Assembly: GCA_027028245.1 (NCBI GenBank)
Contig: JALVJO010000106.1
Location: 1-34,114 of the forward strand
Reading direction: 5' to 3'
From: Deltaproteobacteria bacterium
GTDB lineage: Bacteria; Desulfobacterota; Dissulfuribacteria; Dissulfuribacterales; QOAL01
DNA length: 34,114 nt
Part shown: positions 916 through 33,863 of the stretch, in pieces
How positions within the stretch are numbered: position 1 is the stretch's first letter
Layout of the letters: every line of letters starts with the position of its first letter
Position numbers and translations under genes: made by a program
Notes under the pieces: model-generated
Told to the model about the DNA's origin: nothing
What the model saw: only the letters and a program-made list of their open reading frames with translations
The model's database searches: none

Positions 916-3336
916 CTAGTGAGGTGCCGGAAGTTCTTCGGGTATATCCGGCCTTGAGAACCAGTCAGGGGCCTCAGCTGATTTAAGAGCGGCAAATATC
1001 TGCCCCCTGTCTCCAGCCTCAAGGGCGGCTTCAAGGACATCATCCATGTGCTCCACCAGCTTGATATCAAGGGATTTTAATATCTTATGTGGTATCTCTT
1101 TCAGATCCTTCTCGTTTTCTGCCGGTATCAGGCAGGTTGCCATGTCCATTCGTCTTGCTGCCAGCAGCTTTTCCTTGAGCCCTCCAATGGGCAGCACCCT
1201 GCCCCTCAGGGTGATTTCACCAGTCATGGCAACCTCATGTCTTACCGGTATCTTGAGGAGTGCCGAGACCAGGGCAGTTGCAATGGTGATACCAGCAGAA
1301 GGCCCGTCCTTTGGGATGGCCCCTTCCGGGACATGAACATGCAGATCAACCTTCTGATAGAAGTCCCAGGGCAGTCCAAGCTGATGGGCCCTGGACCTTA
1401 CATAGCTCATGGCTGCATGCACAGACTCCTGCATGACGTCCCCAAGGGTCCCGGTTATGGTCAGCTTCCCCTTGCCCGGCATGACGGCTACTTCAATCTG
1501 AAGCAGGGTTCCTCCGGTTTCTGTCCAGGCCAGGCCTGTGGCAACCCCTACAAGATCCTTTTCCTCTGCATGGGAATGACGATAGCGGGGAACGCCCAGA
1601 AACTTGTTGAGAGACGACCTGGTTATCCTAACTGTCTTGTTCTTGTCAGCTGAACCGGCAATTGACCGGGCCGCCTTTCGGCAAAGGGCAGCTATGGATC
1701 TTTCTAGATTTCTCACACCGGCCTCCCTGGTATAAAGATGAATCATGTCCTGCAGGGCACCGGTGCTTATCTCAAGCTGGGCAGGGGTCAGCCCGTGGGC
1801 ATCGAGCTGTCTGGGAATAAGATGGCGCTTTGCTATCTCTATTTTTTCTTCTTCGGTATAACCGGCAAGCTCAATTATTTCCATCCTGTCCTGAAGTGGG
1901 AAAGGAATGGTGAACAGGGCATTTGCCGTGGTTATAAAAAGCACTTCTGAAAGATCGTAATCCAGGTCAAGGTAGTGGTCATTGAAGGCAAAATTCTGCT
2001 CAGGGTCCAGTACTTCCAGCAGTGCTGAGGCTGGATCACCCCTGAAATCAGAACTCATCTTGTCCACTTCGTCCAGACAGAATACCGGGTTGTTGGAACC
2101 AGCCTTTTTCAGTGACTGAATGATCTTGCCGGGAAGCGCGCCGATGTAGGTCCTCCTGTGACCTCTTATTTCTGCCTCGTCTTTGACACCCCCCAGGGAA
2201 AGGCGCACAAAATTGCGGTCCAGGGCCCTGGCCACCGACCTTGCCAGGGAGGTCTTGCCGACCCCAGGAGGTCCTACAAGGCAGAGTATGGGCCCTTTTA
2301 TCTTCCTGGCAAGGCTTTTCACAGCCAGGAATTCTAAGATTCGTTCCTTGGGTTTTTCCAGGCCATAGTGGTCCTCATCCAGGATCTTTTCAGCCTTTAC
2401 AATGTCATGGTTGTCCTTGGTCTTGTCGTACCAGGGAAGGCACAAAATCCAGTCTATGTAATTTCTTACCACAGTGGCCTCGGCAGACATTGGGGCCATG
2501 AGCTTGAGCTTCTTGAGCTCCCGCCTGACCTTTGCAGCAGCTTCCTTTGGCAGCCGCTTTTTCTTGATCTTTTTTTCCAGCTCCTGTATTTCACTTTGGG
2601 TCTCGTCCTTGTGACCCATCTCCTTCTGAATGGCCCGGATCTGCTCGTTGAGATAATAATCCTTCTGGTTTTTCTCCATCTGTTTCTTGACCCGTTCCTT
2701 GATCCGCTGTTCCATCTTGGCGATCTGGGTCTCAGATGACATGAAGGTATAAAGCCGTTCCAATCTCTTGACAGGATCCAGGGCTTCGAGAACGGCCTGC
2801 TTGTCAGCCACCTTCAGGGAAATGTGAGAGGCAATGGAATCTGCCAGCCTTCCCGGCTCTGAAAGAGAAGAAATGGATACCGCAACTTCAGGAGGAACCT
2901 TGTTATTGAGTTTGCAGTATTCATCAAAGGCGCTTACTGTCAGGCGCTTTAAGGCATCCGCCTTGGCACCGGACACCTTTTTTTCCGCAAGGGGTTCTAC
3001 CTCTACAATGAAATATTTTTCCTCTGGAAGAAAATTCTTGATCTCCGCTCTTCTCTTGCCTTCAATAAGGGCCTTGACAGTGCCGTCCGGCAGCCTCAGG
3101 AGCTGAAGGATGGTTCCTATGGTACCCACCCTGTAGATATCCTTTCTGCCGGGTTCATCAAGCTTTGCATCTTTCTGGGCAGAAAGAAATATCTCCTGAT
3201 TTTCTCCCATGGCCTTCTTGATGGCCTCGACGGATCTTTCCCTGCCTATAAAAAGCGGTGCCACCATGTGGGGAAAGAGCACCATGTCTCTCAAGGGCAG
3301 TAGGGGAAGCGTCAAGAATTTTTCCATGTTATCCAT
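916..3336 (-). CDS. lon: Lon ATP-dependent serine protease
   Basis: A cytoplasmic AAA+ protease that degrades misfolded and short-lived regulatory proteins; 806 residues, normal for LonA. In order: the N-terminal substrate-binding domain (about 1-200, [15 protein letters not shown]), a coiled-coil helical part (about 205-280), the AAA+ module with Walker A GPPGVGKT (about 355-362) and Walker B FCLDEVDK (about 419-426), and the C-terminal protease domain with catalytic Ser680 in KDGPSAG and Lys723 in GGLKEK, giving the expected Ser-Lys dyad. I prefer the ATG at 3336, five bases after GTGAGG; a GTG two codons earlier is also open. It lies 43 bp after clpX in the same direction, so co-transcription with tig-clpP-clpX is likely. 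Nothing is degenerate. Confidence 0.98.
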
Positions 3337-28794: not shown

Positions 28795-29232
28795 TCAGAT
28801 AATTGTCTCAAGCTTTTGTATTATCTGCTGGGCAGGCACTGCTCCAACCAGGGTGTCCACAAGTTGTCCATTTTTGAAAAACAACAGGGTGGGAATACTC
28901 CTAATCTGATATCTCTGTGCGGTAACAGGGTTTTCATCCACGTTCAGTTTGCCGATCAGTGCCCTTCCGGCATACTTTGCTGCCAATTCTTCCACAACAG
29001 GTCCAATAACCCTGCACGGCCCGCACCATGGAGCCCAGCAGTCCACGAGCGCTGCCTTAGAGGAACTGACGAGACTTTCAAAATCGGCATCAGTGAATTT
29101 TACAGGCTCTCCGCCGGCTGATGATAGCGGCACGCCGCACCTGCCGCACTTGGGCCTGTCATTGACCCGGTTCAGGGGGATGCGGTTTTTTATCCCGCAT
29201 CCTGGACACTTTATCAGTATGTTCTCGTTCAT
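28795..29232 (-). CDS. trxC: Thioredoxin 2-type protein with N-terminal zinc ribbon
   Basis: A 145-residue cytoplasmic disulfide reductase. The N-terminal zinc site uses Cys9, Cys12, Cys29 and Cys32 (CPGC, CGRC), as in TrxC, and the thioredoxin fold carries the classical WCGPC at 69-73 with the cis-proline loop RSIPTLLFF. An additional Cys65 lies just before the active site. GGAGG is 11 bases before the ATG. It is divergent from a lipoprotein gene and followed, after a 146-bp gap with nothing else recognisable, by aroB. Confidence 0.93.
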   Translation of the reverse strand: MNENILIKCPGCGIKNRIPLNRVNDRPKCGRCGVPLSSAGGEPVKFTDADFESLVSSSKAALVDCWAPWCGPCRVIGPVVEELAAKYAGRALIGKLNVDENPVTAQRYQIRSIPTLLFFKNGQLVDTLVGAVPAQQIIQKLETII

Positions 29233-29332: not shown

Positions 29333-30130
29333 ATGCTTGAAACCTTCACGCAGGTCTTCTCCAGGCTGAGATACGCAGCAGTTCTCCTGATGCTGCCCCT
29401 GTTTTTCATGCAGCTTTGCGGATGCAGCCTTTTCCGTGGTCCCTCCGGCCCCATAATCGGCCCTGTCCCCAAAAAAACCGGGGATCTCAGGGGTGATCTC
29501 CTTGCCAGGGCAGAGAGTATCAAGGGACTCGATATTCGGGGCCGCCTCTGCATGACAAACCGCGGCAGAAAATTGCCCTCATTCAATGTCCATATATGGT
29601 TTTTCAGCCAGGGTCAGGATCTCCATCTCAGGATCAGGGGTTCAGGCCCGCTTGGCATAACTGTCTTTGATCTCCTTGCCGACAGGAACGAAGCATGGAT
29701 ATATCTCCCCTCCAAGGGCAGGATATTCAAGGGCAACACCTTCTTTACAAGCTATGGGAACATAGACGTGGAAACCGCCATAAGACTCATGGAAATATGC
29801 CTCAATCCCTGGGTCCCGGCAGGTTACTGTAGGTTTCCAGGTACTTTGGAACCACTGGAGAAAGGCAAAAACCTTGTGAAGCTGAACTGCCGGTTCCTGG
29901 CCAGAAATATTGTTGCAAGTTACCAGCAGACCTCGCTCATGCCGGTAAATTTCCGGAGCAGCCTGGCAGATATTACCTTTGAAAGCAAGGCCTCGAACAG
30001 CTACCCTGAAAAGATCTCCTTTAATCTTAAAAGAGACGGTATAAAGGGAACACTTATTGTAAAAGACGTAAAATTCAATACCCTTTCAACCAACAGCCCG
30101 GTCTTCAACAGGTCGATCTTTCTTAAATAA
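29333..30130 (+). CDS. Outer-membrane lipoprotein, LolB/DUF4292-like
   Basis: A 265-residue exported lipoprotein: a hydrophobic signal (about 14-28) ends in the lipobox LCGC with Cys31 the probable lipidated residue. The body resembles LolA/LolB-fold proteins of the DUF4292 type: ESIKGLDIRGRLCM at the start, alternating beta strands (DLHLRIRGSGPLGITVFDLL, EAWIYLPSKGRIFKGN) and the C-terminal sheet (EKISFNLKRDGIKGTLIVKDVKFN). By family it would handle lipid-modified cargo or sit in the outer-membrane inner leaflet; I cannot say which. It is a lone plus-strand gene between trxC (divergent) and the selenoprotein gene (convergent). Confidence 0.75.
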   Translation: MLETFTQVFSRLRYAAVLLMLPLFFMQLCGCSLFRGPSGPIIGPVPKKTGDLRGDLLARAESIKGLDIRGRLCMTNRGRKLPSFNVHIWFFSQGQDLHLRIRGSGPLGITVFDLLADRNEAWIYLPSKGRIFKGNTFFTSYGNIDVETAIRLMEICLNPWVPAGYCRFPGTLEPLEKGKNLVKLNCRFLARNIVASYQQTSLMPVNFRSSLADITFESKASNSYPEKISFNLKRDGIKGTLIVKDVKFNTLSTNSPVFNRSIFLK

Positions 30131-30208: not shown

Positions 30209-31087
30209 TTACCTGCCCTTTTCCAGCACAAAGAGCTTGTTTTCGTATCGGGCAATGGAATAATTCGTGCGGTCTTTTTTAATAAAAAGCCTTATGAGTC
30301 CGACTGATTTACCCCTTGGGTGGCTGCTTACAATGAGGCTGTCATGCCACTTAACAGGTACCCATGTGGGAAAAGTCCTCCCACTTGATATGATAAGTGA
30401 AACTGCCGGGTATTTTCTTATGAAGGCCATTTCCTCCTTTGGAGACAGGGACGAAAGCACAACGATCAGATTTGCGTTCTGCCTTATTTTTTCCATATAC
30501 CTTTCCAGGGCTGGATTGGAACAATCCAGGGCAGTTTCATTGCCGCCTGGAATATGGACCGGCAAGGTGCCCCCAGACAGTCCTATTACAGCTATCTTGA
30601 TGCCCCTGATCTCAAAGATGCGAAAGGGTGAAAATGCGGGCCTCTTGCTGCAATACAGGCATGCAGAGGCAAGAAGGCTTCCTTCCGGATCCAGCTTCTT
30701 TAAAAAGCTGCATCCTGCCGAAAGGTCATCCACCCCGATTCCGGCAAGGTCGTAACCCATCTTTTTATAGGCCTGGAATATTTTCTCTGCCTGTTTCTTT
30801 CTGGACTCGGTGACCAGGCGGCCTGACTGAAAAAGAAATCTGCCGCCATCCAGTAAAAGGTCTACTTTTTTCTGCGCCTTCAGTTTGCGGATCAAACTGA
30901 TCCTGCGGGAAATCCCTCCGATTTCCCTTCCCCCTCAGGAATGGACAGGCTGTGTGTACCCCCAGGTATTGGTTGTATAGGCAATGGCCACTGAAGCAGA
31001 CGCCGTGCCTTCATCCGCAGAGGCAGTGTGCGGCAACATCATGCACAAAAAACCTATCAGCATAAAAAACAGGTTATCCTTTCTCAT
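30209..31087 (-). CDS. UshA/5'-nucleotidase-like exported selenoprotein (Sec51 encoded by TGA)
   Basis: Two ORFs in the same frame are joined by a TGA at 30935-30937. Read through, they give a 292-residue protein: a signal peptide (1-24, cut after TASA), then AYTTNTWGYTQPVHS, Sec51, GGREIGGISRR and a metallophosphatase-like body with LDGGRFLF, AYKKMGYDLAGIGVDDLSAG, FEIRGIKIAVIGLSGG and IVVLSSLSP. The piece after the TGA (GGISRRISLIRKLKAQ) has the family's conserved arrangement but lies before the first possible start (TTG at 30895), so the second ORF cannot be a separate whole gene. Relatives carry Cys around this position as I recall the family. A SECIS-like hairpin follows the TGA. Several metal ligands are replaced (N40, W42, R in DGGR), so phosphatase activity is doubtful; a redox role is inference. 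AGGAGG lies six bases before the ATG, which overlaps the HD gene. A nonsense mutation is the alternative. Confidence 0.8.
30907..30927 (-). promoter_or_regulatory. Bacterial SECIS-like hairpin
   Basis: On the minus strand GGGAAATC pairs perfectly with GATTTCCC around the loop GGAGG. The loop begins 15 bases after the TGA and its first two bases are G, which fits the published bacterial SECIS pattern (small loop with an early G, a stem of 4-16 bp, close to the UGA). Because it lies in coding sequence, the stem must also encode REIGGISR, which it does. Confidence 0.75.
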
Positions 31088-31682
31088 CTTCATCCTCCTT
31101 TTTTGCCCCATTGTCATCGAATGACTCCATCCACCAGCCTGCCCAGTGCGATTCAATTATTGCCTTGGCCAGGTTTTTAGCCTGGGGCGTAACAAGTCTT
31201 TTTTCCACAAACGGCATCCACTTGGCTGCACTGGGATTGCCGCAGTCCAGCTGTTCCTTGAGAGAAACGAGCATATCGATCTGGTCAGCATCCCTGGCAA
31301 GTCTTGATTCCAGGCTCGCACCTGCTTCATATTCCCTGTAAAGTCCAAGAAGGTCCTGACCAAAGGGCAGGCCGCAGACAGCATCTTCGAAGGCCCGCTG
31401 TTCATCCCTATGGACATAAAACTTGTGAACTGCATTGGCATCTCCTGTCCTTGCTTCAGGAAGGTCATGGATGAGGGCCATCATTACCAGCCTGTTTAGA
31501 TCCGCATCCGGTACCATTTTCCCCAGGAGCATTGCTATGAAGGCAGTGGAAAAACTATGGGCAGCAGAGCTTTCCCTTCCGGTTCCCAGAAAGGCATAGC
31601 CGGTCCTCATTGTCCGCTTCAGCATGGATGCCTCAAATATCAAGTTGACCAGCCGTGTGGTTATGTCCTTGTCTTGTCCCAC
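31074..31682 (-). CDS. HD-domain phosphohydrolase (YfbR-like)
   Basis: A 202-residue cytoplasmic HD-superfamily protein. The metal-binding residues are visible: His42 in SSAAHSF, His72-Asp73 in ALIHDLPEARTGD and Asp131 in ARDADQIDML. The closest family I can name is the YfbR/HD_3 group of 5'-deoxynucleotidases, which dephosphorylate dNMPs. It starts with GTG, 15 bp after holA, with no clear ribosome site. Its charged C-terminus (KKEDEDEKG) overlaps the start of the selenoprotein gene by 14 bases, so the two are probably translated in a coupled way. Both resemble nucleotide-hydrolysing families, though the partner's active site is degenerate. Confidence 0.88.
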   Translation of the reverse strand: MGQDKDITTRLVNLIFEASMLKRTMRTGYAFLGTGRESSAAHSFSTAFIAMLLGKMVPDADLNRLVMMALIHDLPEARTGDANAVHKFYVHRDEQRAFEDAVCGLPFGQDLLGLYREYEAGASLESRLARDADQIDMLVSLKEQLDCGNPSAAKWMPFVEKRLVTPQAKNLAKAIIESHWAGWWMESFDDNGAKKEDEDEKG

Positions 31683-31697
31683 GATAAAAATACCAGT

Positions 31698-33020
31698 TCA
31701 AAAATTCCTTAAGAAGAATGACTCCATCACCAGCTCCGGCGGGATCTTTCCCCCCTTTAATGAAAAATCAAGTTCCATCATCTCTTCCAGCATGTCCAGG
31801 AGTTCTCCCTGGGAAAACCTGTCAAGGGCAGCAAGGTTCAGGTAAGCTGAATAAGGATGGAGGCCTTCCAAGGGATTTTCATCGTACTGTTCAAAAACTG
31901 CCTTGAATCTTTTCCAGTGGCTATTCTTGAATGCCTGGTAACTCATCCTTTCCCGGACCAAATCCGGACCTGTGCACATGACTGCCGTCTGCAGGGCCAA
32001 GATCTTTACCAGGAGATTCCTGACAGCAGAAAGCACTGCCAGGGGATGGACTCCCTGGTCGAGAAGAGAGCGGAAACTTGTCAGGGTCCTGTGAAGGTTG
32101 CGAGACCTGATGGCATCAGTCACCTGGAAAATTTCTTCCTCGCGATGACTGACTACAAGTCCCCTGGCATCTTCAAGGGTGATGGTTTTTCTCCGGCCGG
32201 AAAGACTGGCCAGTTTTTCCGCCTCGTTTTTAAGGGCTGAAAGGGAATCTTCCCCTACCTTTTCCACGAAAAACTTAAGGGCCTGCGGTTCTATGTTTTT
32301 CCCTAGCTCCGACAGCCAGGCCTTCACCTGGGCCTGGAGTGAGGCGGTCCGCCTGCCGTATCTTTCACCCTTTCCGCTCAAGTCCGTGACAGGACATGTC
32401 TCCATGAACTGCTTCAAGAGACTGTTTCTCCTGTCGGGCTGCTCCAGGTGGACAGCAAGAAATACCTGAGCTGCCTTGTTTCCCTTTGCCGTCTTTCTGA
32501 CCCATTCCAGGATGCGTTCTCCAGTTGATTTCTCGGGCTCACTGAGCAATTCCTGGATCTTTCCGGAAAATTCCCGTGCGATTTCAATGACTTGTGCATT
32601 GTCTATGCCGGCGGGAAGGGCCAGCTTTCCCAAAACCTCCTTGGAGGCGCTTTCAAGGTCTGCCAAAGACAGCCTTTTTTCCCTCATAACCGCAGCAAGT
32701 ATCCTTGCTGCCCTGTCTCTTTTGCCCTCATCAAGGGCCTTTTGAAGCCTGGCATTCAGTTCTCTCTTTCTGCCCCTGGGCTGCAGAAAATCAGGCTCCT
32801 GGTAGACCACCGCCTTTCTGGAGACAAAAAGGTCCCTGGTCTTGAGTCTTTCCAGCACTGCAGACTCACTGGCCTCATCCCCGTGGACTATTATTATCTC
32901 TTTTTCAGACAGCCCTGGAAACCGGGATTCAAGGACCTTCAGGCACGCTGGCCTTACCGCCTGCCATTCTCCAAAAAACAGATGACAGCAGGCAGGTCTT
33001 TTCTCCTCTTTCTCTTTCAT
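31698..33020 (-). CDS. holA: DNA polymerase III delta subunit
   Basis: Clamp-loader subunit that opens the sliding clamp. At 440 residues it is about 100 longer than typical HolA (about 340). The N-terminal CCHLFFGEWQAVRP corresponds to the LYLLYGED-type start, and the C-terminal half carries the HolA pattern: FFVEKVGEDSLSALKNEAEKLASLS, DAIRSRNLHRTLTSFRSLLDQGVHPLAVLSAVRNLLVKIL and HPYSAYLNLAALDRFSQGELLDMLEEMMELDFSLKGG. The extra length is an insertion at about 95-165 (charged, helical, EGKRDRAARILAAVMREKR). It lies between proC and the HD gene with gaps of 15-18 bp. Assignment rests on the C-terminal half. Confidence 0.85.
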   Translation of the reverse strand: MKEKEEKRPACCHLFFGEWQAVRPACLKVLESRFPGLSEKEIIIVHGDEASESAVLERLKTRDLFVSRKAVVYQEPDFLQPRGRKRELNARLQKALDEGKRDRAARILAAVMREKRLSLADLESASKEVLGKLALPAGIDNAQVIEIAREFSGKIQELLSEPEKSTGERILEWVRKTAKGNKAAQVFLAVHLEQPDRRNSLLKQFMETCPVTDLSGKGERYGRRTASLQAQVKAWLSELGKNIEPQALKFFVEKVGEDSLSALKNEAEKLASLSGRRKTITLEDARGLVVSHREEEIFQVTDAIRSRNLHRTLTSFRSLLDQGVHPLAVLSAVRNLLVKILALQTAVMCTGPDLVRERMSYQAFKNSHWKRFKAVFEQYDENPLEGLHPYSAYLNLAALDRFSQGELLDMLEEMMELDFSLKGGKIPPELVMESFFLRNF

Positions 33021-33038: not shown

Positions 33039-33863
33039 CTATTTGCCGCCAAGCTCCCTGGATCTTTCTGCTGCAGCCCTGACAGCATCCATGACGGCTG
33101 CCAATAGCCCTTGTTTTTCAAGGTGATAGATGCCATGGATAGTTGTGCCGCCGGGGCTGGTAACCATGGAAACCAGCTCCTGGGGATGTCTTCTGGTCTC
33201 CTGGCACATCCTGGCAGAACCTATCACGGTCTGAATGGCCAGCTCTGCAGCTGTGGTCCTGGGAAGCCCCTCCCTTATGCCGGCCTGTATCAGGGCTTCG
33301 ATGAACAGGAAACAGTAAGCCGGACCACTGCCGCTGAGACCGGTTACCGCATCCATAAGCGACTCGGAAACTTCTACTGCCTTTCCCACAGCCCCGAAGA
33401 GCCTGAGGGCCCTTTCCATGTCATGCGCAAGGGCATGGGTTCCCCGGCAGAGGGCTGCAGCCCCTTCCTGGACCAGGGCCGGGGTATTAGGCATGACGCG
33501 GATGACCCTTGTTCCCTTTTCAAGGCCTGCCTCAAGCTGAAAAACGGTTACGCCTGCTGCGATGGAAATTACCAGCTTGTCCCGGGTCACAACAGGCTTC
33601 AGATCTGCCAGCACTACATCCATGACTTGGGGTTTGACAGCCAGGAGAATAACCTCTGCCAGGGCAGCTGCCTCCTGGTTGTCTGAAAAGGTCTTTATGC
33701 CGTAAGTTTTTTCCAGGTATCTTCTTCTTTCATCAAGGGGCTCTGAACAAAATATGTCGCTGGGAGGAATAACGCCCTTTACAGCAACGGCCTTTATCAG
33801 GGCCTCAGCCATCTGGCCGCCGCCTATGAAACAAATATTTTGAAAATCTGTTGAAGCGGGCAT
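33039..33863 (-). CDS. proC: Pyrroline-5-carboxylate reductase
   Basis: Last step of proline biosynthesis: reduces pyrroline-5-carboxylate with NAD(P)H. The 274-residue protein has the Rossmann motif CFIGGGQMAEALI (about 10-22), VILLAVKPQVMDVVL, RVMPNTPALVQEGA and the C-terminal signature GLSGSGPAYCFLFIEALIQAG with VTSPGGTTIHGI. All expected residues are in place. AAGGAGT lies seven bases before the ATG. It probably opens the proC-holA-HD-selenoprotein series. Confidence 0.97.
   Translation of the reverse strand: MPASTDFQNICFIGGGQMAEALIKAVAVKGVIPPSDIFCSEPLDERRRYLEKTYGIKTFSDNQEAAALAEVILLAVKPQVMDVVLADLKPVVTRDKLVISIAAGVTVFQLEAGLEKGTRVIRVMPNTPALVQEGAAALCRGTHALAHDMERALRLFGAVGKAVEVSESLMDAVTGLSGSGPAYCFLFIEALIQAGIREGLPRTTAAELAIQTVIGSARMCQETRRHPQELVSMVTSPGGTTIHGIYHLEKQGLLAAVMDAVRAAAERSRELGGK

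Follow-up and report, generated by a model that had tools for sequence, protein, structure and literature searches.

The window analysed here is a stretch of 34,114 nucleotides, and the gene of interest lies on its minus strand. When the sole in-frame TGA (30935..30937) is read as U, the frame at 31087-30209 codes for 292 residues with the TGA at residue 51, and ends with TAA. On the basis of homologues, an AF2 model and Foldseek, the product of the read-through ORF (30209..31087) is predicted to be an exported selenoprotein with an UshA/SoxB fold. A Shine-Dalgarno sequence, AGGAGG (31094..31099, minus strand), is located 6 nt upstream of the ATG. Residues 1-24 (31016..31087), MRKDNLFFMLIGFLCMMLPHTASA, resemble a signal peptide (TASA|D) when judged by eye, and homologues have hydrophobic N-termini as well. 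The earliest possible start 3' of the TGA is a TTG at 30895; the 13 codons that separate the two encode GGREIGGISRRIS. The first-pass annotation had described a signal-peptide ORF that ends in TGA and continues in the same frame, with 13 codons before the next possible start. Both statements were borne out, and its coordinates for the ORF proved right wherever we checked them.

Upstream on the same strand, a gene for an HD-domain hydrolase (YfbR-like, 31074..31682) overlaps the start of the selenoprotein gene, with 14 nt shared between its stop and the ATG. It is preceded by a gene for a HolA-type DNA polymerase III delta subunit (31698..33020) and by a ProC-like gene (33039..33863), the latter named by eye from its sequence. 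The first two are conserved neighbours, the ProC-like gene is a neighbour in many loci, and the order proC-holA-HD-selenoprotein is likewise kept in many loci. This arrangement looks like a housekeeping location that has been passed on vertically, not a functional operon. On the other side, a Zn-ribbon thioredoxin gene and a lipoprotein-like gene (28795-29232, 29333-30130) follow the selenoprotein gene in all four species of the host's genus; the lipoprotein-like gene has no Pfam match and lies on the opposite strand. In other genera of the order (L053:7133-8930 and 13 further loci), a gene for a CCG/4Fe-4S protein (GlcF/HdrD-like) directly follows the selenoprotein gene, usually with an FtsJ methyltransferase gene next to it. 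The CCG/4Fe-4S gene is absent from the equivalent place in the host's genus.

Reading the TGA as selenocysteine (Sec) calls for the corresponding machinery, which the first-pass annotation had proposed to look for. All of it was found in the host genome: a tRNA-Sec with the anticodon TCA (G000:C116, 74.9 bits, ARAGORN), SelA (614 bits), SelB (score above the cut-off) and SelD (369 bits). The SelD gene (L152, G000:C120:23164-24087) has an in-frame TGA of its own, and SelD is probably a selenoprotein, too.

The decisive evidence for Sec51 is comparative, namely the presence of TGA in every homologue aligned from the host's order and of Cys in most homologues without TGA. Of 60 near genomes, 47 contain a homologue, and nearly all of these homologues have a single internal TGA. 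All 19 genomes examined from the host's GTDB family carried the gene with the TGA, and some relative was detected in 200 of the 345 genomes sampled from the phylum. In the alignment drawn from the host's order, the TGA was invariant at the site of residue 51 (29/29 homologues). There it precedes GG(K/R)xxGG(I/L)xRR or a close variant, and the frame is open on both sides at identities of 24-58%. Across 121 aligned loci the site was occupied by TGA in 97, by Cys in 19 and by another residue in five, a tally that does not give frequencies, since some loci were counted more than once and the loci without TGA were chosen deliberately. The Cys homologues have one unbroken ORF across the site. Such an exchange of Sec and Cys at the TGA is the classical Cys/Sec pair, and it is what the first-pass annotation had named as support for its reading. 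Based on these comparisons, we conclude that the gene at 31087-30209 is a real selenoprotein gene, whose UGA51 is predicted to be read as Sec by the host's own SelA/B/C/D.

The TTG at 30895 could in principle start a separate cytoplasmic C-terminal protein, leaving an exported peptide of 50 residues in front of it. We consider these two products very improbable and rejected them, because the 13 intervening codons show conservation at the protein level, with Gly53, Gly57, Gly58 and Arg62 invariant, and because the Cys homologues run continuously through the site. A nonsense mutation that truncates an ordinary UshA-like gene in one strain would account for a single internal stop and for the split gene that standard annotation would give, but we rejected this explanation as hardly credible: the same TGA recurs in all aligned family members and in many genera, in a frame that has stayed open and similar on both sides. 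A general reassignment of the codon, to Trp or another residue, would equally explain an in-frame TGA that is read; it was given next to no probability and rejected, as TGA serves as the ordinary stop in 12 genes of the window (27 were checked), the genome encodes the Sec machinery, and the non-TGA homologues that were read have mostly Cys and never Trp at the site.

The first-pass annotation had also pointed to a perfect hairpin at SECIS distance. A SECIS-type hairpin starts 8 nt after the TGA (30907..30927, minus strand), and its arms (30927-30920 and 30914-30907) form a perfect 8-bp stem around a 5-nt loop, GGAGG. The stem is thus real, but it is weak evidence when taken alone. Its minimum free energy is modestly unusual compared with dinucleotide shuffles (z = -1.6), and 81 of 400 synonymous recodings fold as well as the hairpin region; a perfect stem of at least 8 bp arose in only 1.3% of synonymous recodings. 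For the 42 nt after the codon, the contrast between groups of relatives is clear. In 52 Sec genes this region folds more strongly than synonymous recodings (mean z -1.35), compared with a mean z of 0.03 in 23 relatives without Sec (p=1.4e-4, Mann-Whitney), in a comparison of related sequences with one codon-usage table, that of the window, applied to all. RNAalifold on the whole set returned only two pairs, with no compensatory changes and no covarying stem, and the claim of a conserved SECIS secondary structure was therefore dropped.

To describe the protein itself, we used an AF2 model (mean pLDDT 85.8; about 62-65 in the Sec loop). Foldseek matched it to 5'-nucleotidases (3ive, 1ush and 2z1a, E about 1e-18) and to SoxB (2wdc, E 8.5e-16), indicating the fold of the UshA/5'-nucleotidase N-terminal domain. 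With E. coli UshA and CD73 the protein shares this domain (E about 1e-17, TMq about 0.67-0.72) at 15-21% identity, but it has neither their metal ligands nor their C-terminal substrate-binding domain (292 aa compared with about 500-550). The C-termini of some relatives (L022, L026, L032, L035 and L037) bear a low-complexity tail with repeated NPF(L/I)xxIEKAKK, which is absent from the shorter protein of the window.

Which positions hold the di-metal ligands (D/H, D, N, H, H, H), along with the catalytic His, is established knowledge of the 5'-nucleotidase family. In a profile alignment to 2z1a, the ligand positions are all replaced in the window's protein: N40 and W42 stand for the D and H of TNDxH, R83 for GD, V119/D120 for GNHE, S213 for H, and G236 and T238 for HxH. 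D120 occupies the position of the catalytic His. SoxB thiosulfohydrolase is a di-metal hydrolase; the metallophosphatase fold is common to both proteins, whereas the di-metal ligands are absent here. The protein has an UshA/SoxB-like fold, but since all these ligands are replaced, its hydrolase site looks dead from the residues and it is probably not a phosphatase. Of the earlier description as metallophosphatase-like, the fold therefore stands and the active site does not.

We also considered that the selenoprotein might still act as a phosphoesterase or nucleotidase, with Sec tuning the metal site, for example as a ligand, and having no redox role. The UshA/5'-nucleotidase fold is clear, and a few more distant relatives retain ND-x-H(G), such as L083 with YTNDVHGETEPCGU. 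Nevertheless, the substitutions at every ligand position and at the catalytic His, together with the missing substrate-binding domain, make this explanation unlikely.

UshA-like selenoproteins (COG0737, CxU) have been on record since 2008 (PMC2398784); they appeared again in 2022 (PMC9312934) and in 2026 as the two families CxU (NF041198) and CxxU (NF049981) (PMC13188914). In the literature searched, we found no functional study of them. The first-pass reading of the gene is supported, with the qualification that the family it belongs to is already known.

With the window's protein, no Pfam family scored above its cut-off. NF041198 (UshA_like_PCGU) gave 160.7 bits against a curated cut-off of 275, and NF049981 (UshA_like_Sel_2) 82.8 bits against 140. 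Six order-level relatives scanned singly also remained below these values (133-179 and 54-106 bits, respectively), while the CxU positive control L083 reached 600 bits with NF041198. The SoxB model TIGR04486 scored 35.7 bits (E = 3e-9) against a cut-off of 550. Because the branch falls well below both NCBIfam cut-offs, annotation would split the gene.

Like NF041198, the window's protein covers the same fold region (profile positions 6-272), has Sec at the equivalent site, a putative signal peptide and Cys/Sec interchange, and occurs in deltaproteobacteria. Unlike NF041198, it has no C-terminal tetraheme cytochrome part and no CXXCH, its ligand loop reads TTNTWG instead of TNDVHG, and the motif of its branch is CxxU, not the CxU of PCGU, with no partner Cys at all in the host's genus. 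With NF049981 it shares the single-domain length, and sister genera share the CxxU spacing; however, the host's genus has VHSU or LHAU in place of CxxU. Hence, the family of UshA-like selenoproteins is already known, and what is new is a branch below both curated cut-offs. Judged from its sequences, this branch is also new in its predicted dead metal site, in having no cytochrome, and in one genus that keeps Sec minus the vicinal Cys.

Most relatives carry PCxxU, with a partner Cys as in PCPSU. In the window's protein, that position is taken by Val48 (30944..30946), within VHSU. In the host's genus, the four species show VHSU or LHAU, and L023, from a second genus, is Cys-less as well, with SKSU. 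In the tree, the Cys-less sequences nest among CxxU sequences, and L023 is sister to the host's genus together with its CPSU sister genus. By this placement, the vicinal Cys disappeared from sequences that retained Sec, either by two losses or by one loss plus a later regain. Two other cysteines, Cys126 (30710..30712) and Cys146 (30650..30652), are present in 4/4 members of the genus and in 0/25 other aligned members, a pattern that amounts to a single coincidence and not to a statistical test, as the four species are one lineage. We propose tentatively, as a possibility that we would not favour over its negation, that the branch is a third UshA-like subfamily outside both curated models, with a metal-free metallophosphatase fold in which the Sec-resolving role has been relocated to Cys126/Cys146. 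If true, this would be a natural move of the selenenylsulfide partner, with the cysteines arising in the same lineage.

The relatives with CxU differ in architecture. All seven aligned PCGU relatives (L083 at 1477-3024, L090, L091, L081, L082, L085 and L063) carry four CXXCH motifs C-terminal to the UshA-like part, compared with none in the aligned CxxU or Cys-less members. In L083, the four motifs fall within a cytochrome c554 domain. One CxU member, L088 with PCAU, has no hemes and is the one exception. The spacing of the Sec motif thus appears to track domain architecture, and the link is strong, not absolute. Given the tetraheme fusion, electron transfer would be the most parsimonious function to assign to the Sec domain.

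Taken as a whole, we consider it likely that the gene encodes a periplasmic selenoprotein with an UshA/SoxB fold, a dead metal site and Sec as its redox or sulfur-handling centre. We infer such a periplasmic selenol function from the Sec residue, the export signal and the fusion of relatives to a cytochrome; no cytochrome domain is present in the window's own protein. Sec51 would sit in the loop that holds the DxH metal motif of true 5'-nucleotidases and would form the reactive centre of the protein, which would carry out thiol/selenol redox reactions or handle sulfur, by electron or sulfur transfer and not by the hydrolysis of phosphate esters. In most relatives, Sec may pair with the vicinal Cys as a CxxU or CxU selenenylsulfide. 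In the host's genus, it would have to use a distant Cys instead, with Cys126 and Cys146 as candidates, or else depend on an external thiol for its resolution. Sec without a vicinal Cys, as seen in this genus, would fit equally well with a selenolate that coordinates a soft metal or a metalloid in periplasmic binding or sensing. We regard this role as rather improbable, because no supporting gene neighbourhood was found and the tetraheme fusion in the CxU relatives favours electron transfer.

These results add to the selenoproteins a branch that has good support and that current models overlook. In all 19 genomes of the host's family, the gene would bear a split or truncated "nucleotidase" annotation. 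Whether the CxxU pair is required can be tested directly in the genus that has Sec and no vicinal Cys. For a family first recorded in 2008, the findings shift attention towards periplasmic redox or sulfur chemistry and away from nucleotide hydrolysis, and the dead metal site of this branch together with the tetraheme fusion in CxU relatives makes that chemistry the function to test.
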